DNA of 64,000 nucleotides, taken from Sulfobacillus acidophilus DSM 10332. GTDB lineage: Bacteria; Bacillota; Sulfobacillia; Sulfobacillales; Sulfobacillaceae. This document shows, piece after piece, positions 80 to 6,112 of the stretch. The stretch covers positions 3,254,270 to 3,318,269 of the forward strand of contig CP003179.1 of assembly GCA_000237975.1 (NCBI GenBank), written 5' to 3'. A program made the translations under genes and the position numbers. The notes beneath the pieces are model-generated. The model was not told the origin of the DNA. It did no database searches and saw only the letters and a program-made list of their open reading frames with translations. Position 1 is the first letter of the stretch; each line of letters opens with the position of its first letter.

Positions 80-1039
80 TCACTCTTCAAATACGTGATA
101 TTCCGCGTCTAAGCGAGGTGTCATTTGAAGCAGAGGATTATGCCATACACGAATCCGCGCAATTTTCGCTCGAGCGGCGTTTAACCGTTCTTGAAGACTT
201 GCCACATCAAGTATGATATCCGCTACGTTCGTTGGTGGGCTGGTGGTGAATTCGGTGTGCACCGTTTCCTCGAGGTAGCCTAATCGGAAAAAAGGATCGT
301 GATATTCTACATGAACGAGTAACAAGGGAGATTGCAAACCGCGGCCACGAGCCTGACGGAATAACGTTCCATTCCATAATCCTTCCAACAATAAGTCGAC
401 GTCACTCTCGGTCATCCCCGACTGAGCCGCCAATGTATGATTAATAATGCCGGGCATCACAAACATCGCAAAGGGCGTCGTCCATGTAGTCCAAATTGTT
501 CCCTGAGTCTTTCCCTCATTTTCTCCTCCGTCGCCCTTAGCCGTTTCATCTTTCGATGGCATTACGACCGTACCTTGCACATAATGGGTGGCAACCGGAT
601 GAAGAGAATGAGCCCAACCGAACTGGACCGGACCGGTAACATGAAAGCTAACGCTCTTGACCGAAAATACCGTTCCGAATACCCGTGCATCAAAAGCGTG
701 GGCCAAAAGCGCTTTTTGGCGTTCGACGGCATCATTTGGATTGGCTCCAGCCCGTTCCCAAATTGTTTTGGCTAAACTATCCCGACCTAAAAGTTTTCCA
801 TCAGCTGTACGTTCCTCTCTAACAAACACGAACCGATCTTTATTCGGCCCACCATCGGGATACTTGGCTAAAACGTAGTCCCGAACATCTCGTTTAATAC
901 TAACGTCAGAAAGGGAGATCCTTCCGTCATCTTCACCAAAAATACGGCGTGCATCACTATCCGCTAACGGATCACGATTGGGAATGCCATCTTTAACAGA
1001 CTTAATAAAAAGTATTTCGCCATTACGTGGGGTTGACAC
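80..1039 (-). CDS. cas7: Cas7 (Csh2-type), Cascade backbone subunit
   Basis: A 319-residue protein of the Cas7/Csh2 (Csd2) family, whose members polymerise along the crRNA to form the Cascade backbone. Visible family features are the N-terminal strand NGEILFIKSVKDGIPNRDP, the segment ARVFGTVFSVKSVSFHVTGP that forms the RRM-like core, and a C-terminal half ending in repeated short strands. The length is normal for I-B Cas7. The start is GTG, about 10 bases after an AAGGAGG ribosome site, and only 5 bases separate it from the cas8b stop. It lies between cas8b and cas5, the standard I-B order. Confidence 0.9.
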   Translation of the reverse strand: MSTPRNGEILFIKSVKDGIPNRDPLADSDARRIFGEDDGRISLSDVSIKRDVRDYVLAKYPDGGPNKDRFVFVREERTADGKLLGRDSLAKTIWERAGANPNDAVERQKALLAHAFDARVFGTVFSVKSVSFHVTGPVQFGWAHSLHPVATHYVQGTVVMPSKDETAKGDGGENEGKTQGTIWTTWTTPFAMFVMPGIINHTLAAQSGMTESDVDLLLEGLWNGTLFRQARGRGLQSPLLLVHVEYHDPFFRLGYLEETVHTEFTTSPPTNVADIILDVASLQERLNAARAKIARIRVWHNPLLQMTPRLDAEYHVFEE

Positions 1040-1044
1040 TAGAA

Positions 1045-3006
1045 TTATGCCTCCTTAAATACTTCTTCGTTGTCAATTTCTCCGCCTAATGGAAGCCGAT
1101 ACAATCCATAACCTGCCCAAAACGACGACATAAAACGATCTTTATGTCGTTGAATGTCTTCAGATTGCCGCAAAAACTCCGAAAGACACAGAGCTACTTT
1201 TTGCACAAAACGTTGATTCAAGGGCATCTGTAATTTTAAAGCGAGTTCTTCGATTCGGCCCAACGCACGGTGACCTATCACATCTGGTGTCAAGTTAGAA
1301 CCAAACGTCATCACCCGACTTTGCAGATAATCTTTATGCGTTTTGTTGTAGTAGTGTTGGGCAAATTGGTGAACCGTCAATCCCATCATGAACCCTAGAT
1401 CTTCCAAATTATCTATTTGCCAATTGTTAACGTCTTTACCCCACATGGTCAATAACGTCTGCCATGGTTTCATAACCTGCCCCCTCTCAAAAGACTCTAT
1501 GGTTGACATATATTGGTACCAAAACTGATGAAACAACGCATATTGCTTCGCTAAGACCTGAAAGAGCGTCCATTGACGGGGATCAAGGCCTATTGTTCGC
1601 CCGTAGTCCGTTAAATTTTGGGAGACACGCTCAACTACTCGTTCCCGAGATAACGGGCGATGATGAAGAACGGTGCTAAGTGCAGCCCATAGAGCCCCAC
1701 TACCGTACATGCGCCCCAACAAAGCCGGTAAAGACGTTGGACGTAGTTCCAGGTTTGCGGCCTCATAATTTAAATCACCGACTAATCCGGATAACCGGTC
1801 TATATCGGATGGCATAATGTCGTCTACATAAGACCACAATTGAACATCCGCGTTGCTAACCGAATAGTAGATAGTCGCTAATCGATAGGTATCTTGATCT
1901 AACTCCTCCGGTAACATCAAAGGGATGCCTAGCACTTGATCGAGATGTCTAACTGCCCCTGATGTTTCGACTGTACTCTCCATTTTTTGAATGCCTCGAA
2001 TATAACGCTGCCAATCTTGTTGACTAAGCCCGTCATCTAACAAGGGAGTCACTAAAACGGTTCCCCGTATCGCAGGAATTTGGGTAAGGCTCCGATGCTG
2101 ATGACTTGCGGCAAATGCCTCCTGCATAATACGTGGCGGCAACGGTTGAGAAATTCGTTCAAACCACTTGGCTCCCATCGTTAGGGCTCCATAACAAGCC
2201 CCACAAAGAGCAACTCCTTCGTCTAAGTGGTGTGAATCTAAATCCTGTGGTAACGGAGCAGTCCACGTGACACTAAACCATGACCATGCTTTCGCATAAA
2301 TCGACACCACTTCTGAAGTTTTTTTGCAGATAGAACATTGACCTTGACTGCGACGTCCTTGATGGGAACCCTCTTCCAGTTTGGCCCACCAAATTCCCTC
2401 TACAATCTGGGTTAAGTCGGCTCGAATTTCCCATGTCGGATTAATTATGCTCGCTGTAATTTGACGGTGTTGCTGAGGCAATGGTTCTTCCTTGAGCGCA
2501 CGATAATAAACCTTAGATTCCGGATGACACAGCAGAATTAAGCCTTTACCGTCATCAAGGAAATCGATTTGATCCACTATACCTTGAGCAATTTGGGCAA
2601 GATACTCATCAAACTTAGAAGAGGCATCCCGAGTTTTAACTAATCGGCCCCGTAGGAACTTCTCAACCTGAAATGCGGAATTGATTTGATCCTTCTTAAA
2701 AAAAGGGTATGCCGGAAATCCATAACGCCCCTGAGGATTAATCGGGTTGCCTGTCGACGGAATCGCAACGGGTGCGATTGCTGTCCGATCGTCCGGTATA
2801 AATTTTTTCCCACCGGTGTCCATCAGACCCCATTGCTGGTGAGAATGAACTTTGACCTGTCCCTCCCCCAGCTCCACAATGATGACTTGTTGGTAAAAGT
2901 CACGAGCACGTCCGTCAATGTCCGTCAGTTGCTGAATTAGACGCGTCAGATCGTTGTTTTCGCTTATTAGAGGTCGGCCTACACGAATTAAATTCTCGAT
3001 CAACAT
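1045..3006 (-). CDS. cas8b: Cas8b (Csh1/TM1802-like), Cascade large subunit
   Basis: A 653-residue protein between cas6 and cas7. It fits the Csh1/Cas8b family by size, position and a central zinc-finger pair: CSICKK near residue 224 and CGACYG near residue 270. In I-B systems this subunit recognises the PAM and contacts the target DNA. The ATG follows the cas6 stop directly (TAA then ATG), with a GAGG ribosome site inside the end of cas6, suggesting translational coupling. The C-terminal half is helical and poorly conserved, as expected for large subunits. The family is divergent, so the exact subfamily is uncertain. Confidence 0.85.
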   Translation of the reverse strand: MLIENLIRVGRPLISENNDLTRLIQQLTDIDGRARDFYQQVIIVELGEGQVKVHSHQQWGLMDTGGKKFIPDDRTAIAPVAIPSTGNPINPQGRYGFPAYPFFKKDQINSAFQVEKFLRGRLVKTRDASSKFDEYLAQIAQGIVDQIDFLDDGKGLILLCHPESKVYYRALKEEPLPQQHRQITASIINPTWEIRADLTQIVEGIWWAKLEEGSHQGRRSQGQCSICKKTSEVVSIYAKAWSWFSVTWTAPLPQDLDSHHLDEGVALCGACYGALTMGAKWFERISQPLPPRIMQEAFAASHQHRSLTQIPAIRGTVLVTPLLDDGLSQQDWQRYIRGIQKMESTVETSGAVRHLDQVLGIPLMLPEELDQDTYRLATIYYSVSNADVQLWSYVDDIMPSDIDRLSGLVGDLNYEAANLELRPTSLPALLGRMYGSGALWAALSTVLHHRPLSRERVVERVSQNLTDYGRTIGLDPRQWTLFQVLAKQYALFHQFWYQYMSTIESFERGQVMKPWQTLLTMWGKDVNNWQIDNLEDLGFMMGLTVHQFAQHYYNKTHKDYLQSRVMTFGSNLTPDVIGHRALGRIEELALKLQMPLNQRFVQKVALCLSEFLRQSEDIQRHKDRFMSSFWAGYGLYRLPLGGEIDNEEVFKEA

Positions 3007-3765
3007 TTAACGAACCTCGTTCCCGGAAATTGATTCCACGAGTCCAAACCCCTGGGAGTTTCGATCACCTAATCCTGCATCCAGCCCAACTTGGAGAAGA
3101 TCCTTGGATCCTTCCAAGCGAAACATTCCGGCATATCCTTTTATAATGGTTTTTTTATAACGAACCAAATGAAATTTAGTGGCTCCTTGAGCCCGAATAG
3201 AGAAATCGGATTCCGCGCCACCCCATGGATGGCCATAAATTACCTGATATTTACGAAGAAGGTTCGTCCGAATAAGACGACCAAACTCTACTTCCCGAGG
3301 ATGATAATATTGGGTATATACACCTCCGTCGGGCTTTTCAAAAGTACTATGAATTGTGATGGGCGAAAGAGTCCGAACCAGTATCTTATTGTCCGTGACT
3401 CGAGGTTCTTGTACTGTAATACTTCCCAGACGACAAGGCGTGGGACCAATTCGCCATTGGTGACGGGATAACAGAGCTTGAATAAACTGGTCAATTATCA
3501 CTCGAATCGGGGACGACACCACTAACTGAATAGGCCAATTAAATGCAAAGACGCCGGATTTGAGTTGATAGGTGCCAAAAAGCTGCGAAAATGTAAATAA
3601 CCGAAGAGATCTCCCCTCAATAACAAAACCGTGATCATGAACTACCCGAGCGACAGGTTCTCCCATCGCCTGATACACGGCGCCCTGAACCCAATCTGCA
3701 TACATTCTAGCCGGAATGATTAAAGGGCCTTGATTAACAGATTCAAGGGTAATCATAACGCGCAT
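3007..3765 (-). CDS. cas6: Cas6 crRNA-processing endoribonuclease
   Basis: A 252-residue RAMP protein that would cut the array transcript inside the repeat, leaving an 8-base 5' handle. The C-terminus has the glycine-rich loop typical of Cas6 (LQVGLDAGLGDRNSQGFG-like), and a GYAGMFRLEG segment precedes it. A catalytic histidine cannot be assigned with certainty; candidates are in the N-terminal third (HDHGF). It is the first gene of the leftward cas operon, 197 bases downstream of the array end. An AAAGGGA ribosome site precedes the ATG. Confidence 0.88.
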   Translation of the reverse strand: MRVMITLESVNQGPLIIPARMYADWVQGAVYQAMGEPVARVVHDHGFVIEGRSLRLFTFSQLFGTYQLKSGVFAFNWPIQLVVSSPIRVIIDQFIQALLSRHQWRIGPTPCRLGSITVQEPRVTDNKILVRTLSPITIHSTFEKPDGGVYTQYYHPREVEFGRLIRTNLLRKYQVIYGHPWGGAESDFSIRAQGATKFHLVRYKKTIIKGYAGMFRLEGSKDLLQVGLDAGLGDRNSQGFGLVESISGNEVR

Positions 3766-3962: not shown

Positions 3963-5693
3963 GTTTCAATTCCTCATAGGTAGGCTATAAACAGATATTG
4001 TCATCGGGTATCCTCCTATCAGGTGGATTTCAATTCCTCATAGGTAGGCTATAAACTGGGCATTCGTCGAATTACGATTCGCTAGCGTTACGATTTCAAT
4101 TCCTCATAGGTAGGCTATAAACAGATATTGTCATCGGGTATCCTCCTATCAGGTGGATTTCAATTCCTCATAGGTAGGCTATAAACATCCGATTGATGTG
4201 CATATCGAGCCGGCACATGCATTTCAATTCCTCATAGGTAGGCTATAAACTCCAGTCGTAGGCGGTTGTCCCTTGGGTTTCCATATTTCAATTCCTCATA
4301 GGTAGGCTATAAACTACCATGTTGACCGGTTGTTGCATAGTATCATGCTACATTTCAATTCCTCATAGGTAGGCTATAAACCTATTGCCGGAGTCCAGTC
4401 GTCGTCCGGCGTATCGGATTTCAATTCCTCATAGGTAGGCTATAAACAATCTCACCCCATCGGAGTGGGAAGCCTATAACTCGATTTCAATTCCTCATAG
4501 GTAGGCTATAAACTACCAGTGCCAGCCAACCGGAGAGCCGGCCATGAACCAATTTCAATTCCTCATAGGTAGGCTATAAACCATCTAGCCGAAAATTGGC
4601 TGGATGTAACCTTAGAATTTCAATTCCTCATAGGTAGGCTATAAACCGGAGGCGGCTGTGGCGATCCTCACGCTCCGCGATATTTCAATTCCTCATAGGT
4701 AGGCTATAAACGTCTTTTTATGGAGCGGTAATGCATGATAAGCCTGAACATTTCAATTCCTCATAGGTAGGCTATAAACGTTTGGGTACTTTTCCTTGCC
4801 CATGATACGAGATATTTCAATTCCTCATAGGTAGGCTATAAACCAAGATGCTCAGATCACGATCGGGGCCGGAGGAAATGATTTCAATTCCTCATAGGTA
4901 GGCTATAAACGTTTGGGTACTTTTCCTTGCCCATGATACGAGATATTTCAATTCCTCATAGGTAGGCTATAAACGCCAGTCGCCGGCGACGATCCGGGTT
5001 CGGCCGCATACGATTTCAATTCCTCATAGGTAGGCTATAAACGAGCGACGGCACCGGCAGCACCGGCGGGACAGGAATTTCAATTCCTCATAGGTAGGCT
5101 ATAAACGGATTTGGGTATGGACTTCCTGGTGTTCCCACTGCAATTTCAATTCCTCATAGGTAGGCTATAAACTGGCCGAGTTACTGACGGCAGCCGACGT
5201 CAATGCAAATTTCAATTCCTCATAGGTAGGCTATAAACCTTTCTCCTCGGGTAAGCGTTTGAACGGCTTGAAATTTCAATTCCTCATAGGTAGGCTATAA
5301 ACTAACAGTCGTATCATCGTCGATGAAGGCGGAACAAATTTCAATTCCTCATAGGTAGGCTATAAACCGCAACCGCCTGTTGGCGCTCTAATCCGCTACG
5401 GATTTCAATTCCTCATAGGTAGGCTATAAACACGATACGGTCGTGGTCAGTGAGGTTGTGTTCGGGATTTCAATTCCTCATAGGTAGGCTATAAACGCAT
5501 TCTTCCATGGCCCGGACAATCACGTCCATCGTATTTCAATTCCTCATAGGTAGGCTATAAACTCGTCGGCGGCATGGGGGATCATCCACGTATACAGATT
5601 TCAATTCCTCATAGGTAGGCTATAAACCTTGGCGATGCAGGATGACGGATGGATTCTCCGGAGATTTCAATTCCTCATAGGTAGGCTATAAAC
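3963..5693 (-). CRISPR. Type I-B CRISPR array, 27 repeats and 26 spacers
   Basis: Twenty-seven 30-base repeats separated by 26 spacers of 34 to 38 bases. In transcript sense (minus strand) the repeat begins GTTTATAGCC and ends GAATTGAAAT. The ATTGAAA 3' end is the 5'-handle signature of I-B/I-A/III repeats, so transcription runs leftwards from a leader at 5694 towards the cas genes. Every repeat is identical except the leader-distal one at 3963-3992, whose last base is C (GAAAC) instead of T. Two spacers occur twice, each pair separated by one other spacer: 3993-4026 equals 4123-4156, and 4780-4813 equals 4911-4944. Confidence 0.98.
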
Positions 5694-6112
5694 CCATTTT
5701 GCGCTGATAAATCACAGATCGTCAAGAACAGTCGTCCATGCTTTTAATATTAACCGGAAATCCAAAACGGCTATTATGTGCTTATAATTCTTGCCTTATA
5801 GCCCCGAATCATGGGTGTTGTCGATCCCCCGGGATTTTTGCACAAATGGTCATCGACAACATTTGAATAAATGAATTACAACGCTATCATAGCTTCAACC
5901 AGCTGCGAAACGTGAGATAACCTAAAGTTAAAGATTGGCGGATTACACAAAGCACCAAAACGATCGAAGGACCGCCGTCAGTCGAGACCAAATCCCAGAT
6001 TCACAAAGTCGTTCCGACCACTATCGGCAATAGGTTTGGAGTGTTTATGTCTGGCCGGTCGAAGTCCCAAAAGTATATTTTAACAGGATTACCACCACGA
6101 CCGACGAGTCCC
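5694..6112 (-). promoter_or_regulatory. CRISPR leader and adjoining non-coding region
   Basis: The sequence flanking the leader-proximal repeat is AT-rich for about 200 bases, in contrast to the GC-rich surroundings, and carries A/T stretches in the leftward direction such as GAATTATAAG near 5780. It should contain the array promoter and the integration signals read by Cas1-Cas2. The part from about 5900 to 6112 has ordinary composition. No gene or RNA was recognised there. Confidence 0.6.

Follow-up and report, generated by a model that had tools for sequence, protein, structure and literature searches.

The CRISPR locus

We analysed a window of 64,000 nucleotides from Sulfobacillus acidophilus DSM 10332 (C1:3254270-3318269; the genome totals 3,557,831 bp, 3,472,898 bp of them in the first of its two contigs). 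Near the left end of the window lies a type I-B CRISPR array whose spacers are 34-38 nt long, 24 of the 26 being distinct (Table 1). A second array, which we refer to as the sister array or array 1, is found at C1:3246155-3248876 (L040 2155-4877) and carries 42 repeats and 41 different spacers. The two arrays are separated by a minus-strand type I-B operon, cas6-cas8b-cas7-cas5-cas3-cas4-cas1-cas2, of which cas5, cas3, cas4, cas1 and cas2 lie to the left of cas7, beyond the window edge. Cas1b, Cas3 core, Cas4, Cas2 and Cas6 passed the NCBIfam cut-offs, NCBIfam profiles gave no match to cas8b, and the assignments of Cas7 and Cas5 rest on general models that scored over the cut-off, the I-B-specific models scoring under it. 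The locus thus combines a repeat/spacer array, a full cas set and a leader beside the newest spacer, as a type I-B locus should.

Table 1. Features of the type I-B locus, in positions of the window
Feature	Position	Strand	Remarks
cas7	80..1039	-	PF05107 E 2.9e-50; TIGR01595 above cut-off
cas8b	1045..3006	-	PADLOC Cas8b PDLC01483 E 3.6e-228; Pfam Cas_TM1802 just under cut-off
cas6	3007..3765	-	TIGR01877 E 7.8e-33; PF01881
Type I-B CRISPR array	3963..5693	-	27 repeats of 30 nt, 26 spacers; strand as inferred for transcription, with the leader at the right
Terminal leader-distal repeat	3963..3992	-	only repeat of the 27 to start with G (+ strand)
Spacer 1 (A, copy 1)	3993..4026	-	34 nt, leader-distal end; identical to 4123-4156
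Spacer 2 (B)	4057..4092	-	36 nt, between the copies of A; from array parse
Spacer 3 (A, copy 2)	4123..4156	-	34 nt; from array parse
Spacer 13 (C, copy 1)	4780..4813	-	34 nt; identical to 4911-4944
Spacer 14 (D)	4844..4880	-	37 nt, between the copies of C; from array parse
Spacer 15 (C, copy 2)	4911..4944	-	34 nt; from array parse
Leader	5694..5891	-	198 bp; shared at 85% identity with the sister array's right flank

Two spacers occur twice in the array, and in both cases the two copies, identical at 34/34 nt, are separated by exactly one other spacer, an arrangement we write as A-B-A. The positions, the identity and the single intervening spacer are all as the original prediction had them. 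Each A-B-A block with its four repeats spans only 224-225 nt (3963-4186 and 4750-4974). The repeats are intact at every junction of both blocks, the terminal repeat alone deviating, by its first base. We computed a probability of about 3e-21 per pair that two 34-mers would be identical by chance; chance is out of the question as the source of both identities. No other pair of spacers shares 14 nt or more, either in this array or in the 41-spacer sister array, where no spacer is duplicated, and neither array of the genome has a pair of spacers that match and differ in length. The array at 3963-5693 contains no A-B-A-B intermediate and no adjacent A-A pair.

The two leaders are alike over their 198 bp, whereas no match was obtained between the two left flanks, and the common right flank was therefore identified as the leader. 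In the right-to-left reading the repeat terminates in ATTGAAAT/C, much as the handles of type I-B crRNAs do. A relative that has the same repeat (L038/L051) contains re-acquired spacers whose common end is equivalent to the right end of the spacers here, as expected if the PAM side is at the right. With the leader at the right, the spacers run from the oldest, number 1, to the newest, number 26, so that the first A-B-A includes the oldest spacer of the array and the second lies in mid-array.

The repeats of the two arrays are separated by a one-base difference at their start. The first base is A in 26 of the 27 repeats and G only in the leftmost (3963-3992), which sides with the sister array, where all 42 repeats begin with G. 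The A/G change probably arose when the array at 3963-5693 was very short.

Accuracy of the assembly

The genome record is described as finished, with 219.6x coverage by Illumina reads and by 454 reads, both single and paired-end, and 27 and 43 repeats are published for the two arrays (PMC3558970). Our counts are 27 and 42. To the left of array 1 lies a shortened repeat-like copy ending in GGCTATAAAC (L040 about 2080-2155), which may be the published 43rd repeat.

CRISPR arrays are repetitive, and the finished sequence could in principle repeat a unit that is present once in the chromosome. According to the genome paper, shredded Velvet contigs were combined with the 454 data (PMC3558970), and the count for array 1 differs by one if the broken copy is left aside. 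Against these points stand the depth and the paired-end 454 reads of a finished genome, the shortness of each A-B-A block, and the agreement of the published 27 repeats with the sequence analysed here. A typical 454 Titanium read is longer than such a block. An assembly artefact is unlikely to lie behind the duplicates, and we give this reading very little weight. Our weightings of this and all other readings are judgements, not computed posteriors.

Searches for protospacers and related arrays

Searches with the whole array returned five phage records, at E 0.1 to 0.5, and eight plasmid records in which the matched stretches span repeats or look repeat-driven. Exact cores of 21-24 nt from spacers A, B, C, D and 26 had no match in viral contigs; the remaining spacers of this array were covered by the whole-array queries, and no protospacer was found in either way. 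The newest spacer, number 26 (5628-5663), is 88-90% identical over 31-34 nt to DNA methylase genes in three mycobacteriophage records. These matches, at E 0.1 to 0.5, are near chance, and the exact 21-nt core of the spacer is absent from viral contigs.

Among 34 genomes of the family, spacers A and C were found in their own array only, with up to three mismatches allowed. Strain TPY (GenBank CP002901) of the same species also has two arrays, which are much shorter than those of NAL(T) (DSM 10332): the genome paper gives them 8 and 9 repeats, with all of their spacers found in NAL(T) (PMC3558970). It follows that array length has changed within the species, a point in favour of duplication and loss.

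Duplicated spacers in control arrays

For comparison we surveyed arrays elsewhere in the phylum. A search of 299 genomes for Cas2 gave matches in 193; 80 Cas2 regions were chosen among the matches listed, and arrays of relatives with the same repeat family were added. We excluded matches located on short contigs, every listed genome belonging to genus g128, and some further entries near the bottom of the list. Scripted detection yielded 87 arrays from 78 of 91 loci, or 84 after three overlapping detections were dropped, and the control set comprised 82 arrays with 3826 spacers. The 82 represent at most 81 separate arrays, one long array having been split by region ends (L096, L160), and some others are truncated where a region or contig stops. 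Four repeats were required for detection, and a 10-repeat array (L050) escaped the script; the short arrays of L031, L033, L036 and L039 are outside the counts. Orientation was unassigned in 5 of the 82.

Exact duplicates, a few of which may be assembly errors since the genomes include drafts, are present in 23 of the 82 control arrays. The pair events, described by lag (1 for adjacent copies, 2 for copies one spacer apart), comprise 18 adjacent A-A pairs, 6 lone A-B-A (one within an A-B-A-B-A), 2 tandem two-spacer blocks, 4 dispersed blocks and 6 lone pairs at a lag of at least 5. No lone exact pair was seen at lag 3-4 in these arrays, and none of the 82 has two separate lone A-B-A. The lone A-B-A is thus a minority class, A-A being three times as common. 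Nine spacers, in four of the arrays, are present in at least three copies.

Some control arrays have more elaborate patterns. In L116 (spacers 16-27 and 88-96) a four-spacer block is repeated at lag 8, and a further pair and a mutated pair also lie at lag 8; in L096 (spacers 16-24) a three-spacer block occurs three times in a row. We considered using repeat variants as marks of the copied unit. This proved unusable, since a variant repeat, in that case a terminal one, lies beside a duplicate in just one of the 23 duplicate-holding arrays.

The signature of re-acquisition

An identical spacer could be obtained twice by uptake from the same protospacer. Repeated uptake beside the same PAM should give pairs of spacers that share the PAM-side end and vary in length, and such pairs are found: among 35 nearly identical spacer pairs in the control arrays, 29 coincide at the PAM-side end but not in length, and 22 of these have no mismatch. 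Six lie at lag 1, three at lag 2, one at lag 3-4 and 19 at a lag of at least 5. They are clustered, with 9 in L130 and 7 in L106 making up 16 of the 29; within L106, a single group of spacers supplies five. Re-acquired pairs also occur in L051, L109, L148 and others, and seem commonest in a few arrays.

To forecast the number of exact pairs that re-acquisition would produce we used the chance that two spacers of one array have equal length, which averages 0.258. The forecasts for lags 1, 2, 3-4 and at least 5 are 2.1, 1.0, 0.35 and 6.6, and the numbers seen are 18, 6, 0 and 6. At lag 2 the Poisson probability of seeing 6 pairs with 1.04 expected is 0.0007, or 0.004 for 5 pairs when the A-B-A-B-A case is dropped, though these values ignore the clustering of the 29 re-acquired pairs and the numbers are small. 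This comparison suggests that distant exact pairs are explained by re-acquisition, and that adjacent and one-apart pairs are mostly duplications.

The original prediction had held that independent acquisition of an identical spacer twice is unlikely. As a general statement this finds no support in the survey: renewed uptake from the same target is not rare in the controls, and re-acquisition alone accounts fully for the distant exact pairs. For the array at 3963-5693, independent re-acquisition would mean that each pair stems from two uptakes of a single protospacer, interrupted by the acquisition of one other spacer. It has the attraction of needing only one event per pair. However, equal length is expected in about a fifth of re-acquired pairs (0.203), and both pairs here are of equal length without a mismatch, for which the chance is 0.04; this lowers the likelihood of re-acquisition. 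The absence of length-variant pairs from both arrays of the genome also counts against it, as does the position of both pairs at lag 2, which under random placement has a chance of 0.005. In published reconstructions 805 of 24,090 spacers were duplication candidates, of which 695 were scored as duplications and 8 as re-acquisitions, a far lower proportion of re-acquisition than in our controls, although almost identical spacers are grouped there (PMC11472070). We consider independent re-acquisition an unlikely origin of the two pairs.

Probable duplication and partial loss of repeat-spacer units

The two A-B-A arrangements are probably scars of the duplication of repeat-spacer units followed by partial loss, brought about by mispairing of the identical 30-nt repeats. 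Slippage in replication or unequal recombination would turn a two-unit block, A-B, into A-B-A-B, and one B unit would then be lost. An equivalent route would be a single replication event that moves back two repeats and forward one. We infer both the order of the steps and the enzymes involved. Duplication is favoured because the copies match from end to end in both pairs and every flanking repeat is intact, whereas re-acquired control spacers usually vary in length.

A forward simulation with gain at the leader end, deletion of blocks and tandem duplication of blocks was compared with the controls. With a mean block length of 2.7, the value published for deletions (PMC11472070), the simulated ratio of A-A to A-B-A is 16 : 4.2-4.5, with 3.4-4.8 dispersed blocks. 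After re-acquisition is subtracted (2.1 from the 18 A-A pairs), the ratio in the controls is about 16 : 5, with the 4 dispersed blocks. The original prediction, that duplication and loss through the repeats is the simpler account, is therefore supported in two ways, by lag-2 pairs at about six times the number forecast from re-acquisition and by a simulated ratio about equal to that observed. A special mechanism for lag 2 was dropped as the main reading, since the ratio in the controls is approximately that of the plain model with the published block length.

Other aspects of the comparison argue against duplication and loss. If the mean block length were 1.5, the model would give a smaller share of A-B-A, 2.2-2.4 per 16 A-A. 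Intact tandem blocks are fewer in the controls than modelled: per 16 A-A the simulation gives 5.0-5.4 A-B-A-B and 3.3-4.4 longer blocks, and 2 and 0 pair events were seen. This shortfall may reflect a faster decay of duplicated blocks, as the SpacerPlacer authors suggest (PMC11472070). The simulation also predicts lone pairs at lag 3-4 in about half the number at lag 2, and the controls have none; the evidence against is weak in this instance because only about two would be expected. In the array itself neither A-B-A-B nor A-A is present, though A-A is the commoner class in the controls. Finally, the terminal spacer is said in a review to join rearrangements rarely (PMC8047081), and the inclusion of that spacer in the first pair counts against duplication and loss.

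The original prediction also called it unusual for A-B-A to occur twice in one array, and the double occurrence is indeed uncommon, being absent from all of the controls; a single A-B-A, by contrast, is ordinary. In the model two separate lag-2 pairs would likewise be rare, appearing in 0-1.2% of simulated arrays that have exactly two duplicated spacers, and when simulated arrays have about 26 spacers, 0.11-0.53% of them contain at least two lone A-B-A. The control rate gives a Poisson probability of 8e-4 for two or more lone A-B-A in an array of that size. The double A-B-A in one 26-spacer array is thus uncommon, yet no new mechanism is needed.

Two further routes to A-B-A involve the integration of spacer B. 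In the first, a tandem A-A would form, and a new B would then integrate into the repeat that separates the copies and not next to the leader. Among the control duplications A-A is the most frequent class, and ectopic integration is described in a review (PMC8047081); however, two rare steps would be required, and required twice. We regard such an origin as very improbable. In the second, repair of the repeat opened during integration of B at the leader would have recopied A, at that time the newest unit. The sister chromosome would be the template, and A-B-A would form in one step. Copying of this kind would account for the single-spacer gap in both pairs here, and also for the contrast in the controls between six lone exact pairs at lag 2 and zero at lag 3-4. 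In amplicons from the leader end of Haloferax arrays, duplications of existing spacers are reported to far outnumber new ones (PMC12714723), a result that bears on copying coupled to acquisition without showing A-B-A. If such copying did occur, a lone A-B-A would be the footprint of faulty spacer integration, not of later duplication and loss. We regard it as highly unlikely for the pairs described here, and retain duplication followed by partial loss as the preferred explanation.

Comparison with other systems and significance

Duplication and deletion of spacers through the repeats has been reviewed (PMC8047081). The array resembles the replication-misalignment systems described there and in the published reconstructions (PMC8047081, PMC11472070) in that whole units are copied, the repeats are intact, the copies are exact and lie a short distance apart, and similar deletions occur. 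It differs from them in that a spacer separates the copies, which there are adjacent, and in that this happens twice in one array.

In group B Streptococcus followed over time during carriage, duplications of single spacers were reported, adjacent in two cases and distant in one, and in other women a duplication was joined to the loss of a neighbouring spacer (PMC5641575). As in those cases, the duplicates here are of single spacers; the CRISPR type and the host are different, and the parent array was sampled in that study whereas here it is inferred (PMC5641575). Our literature searches found no report on non-adjacent duplicated spacers and nothing related on unequal crossing over of spacers, to which we attach little weight because wording varies. 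The double A-B-A is real and ordinary, the process being already known and similar patterns being found in other bacteria.

The extra spacer copies would give a second template for the same crRNA. The array offers a clear-cut case of rearrangement within a finished type I-B genome and is of little import alone. A by-product of the survey, the comparison of spacer lengths at the PAM-distal end, may be more useful than the A-B-A finding: such length differences help to tell re-acquisition from duplication in single arrays, and sister strains are not needed.
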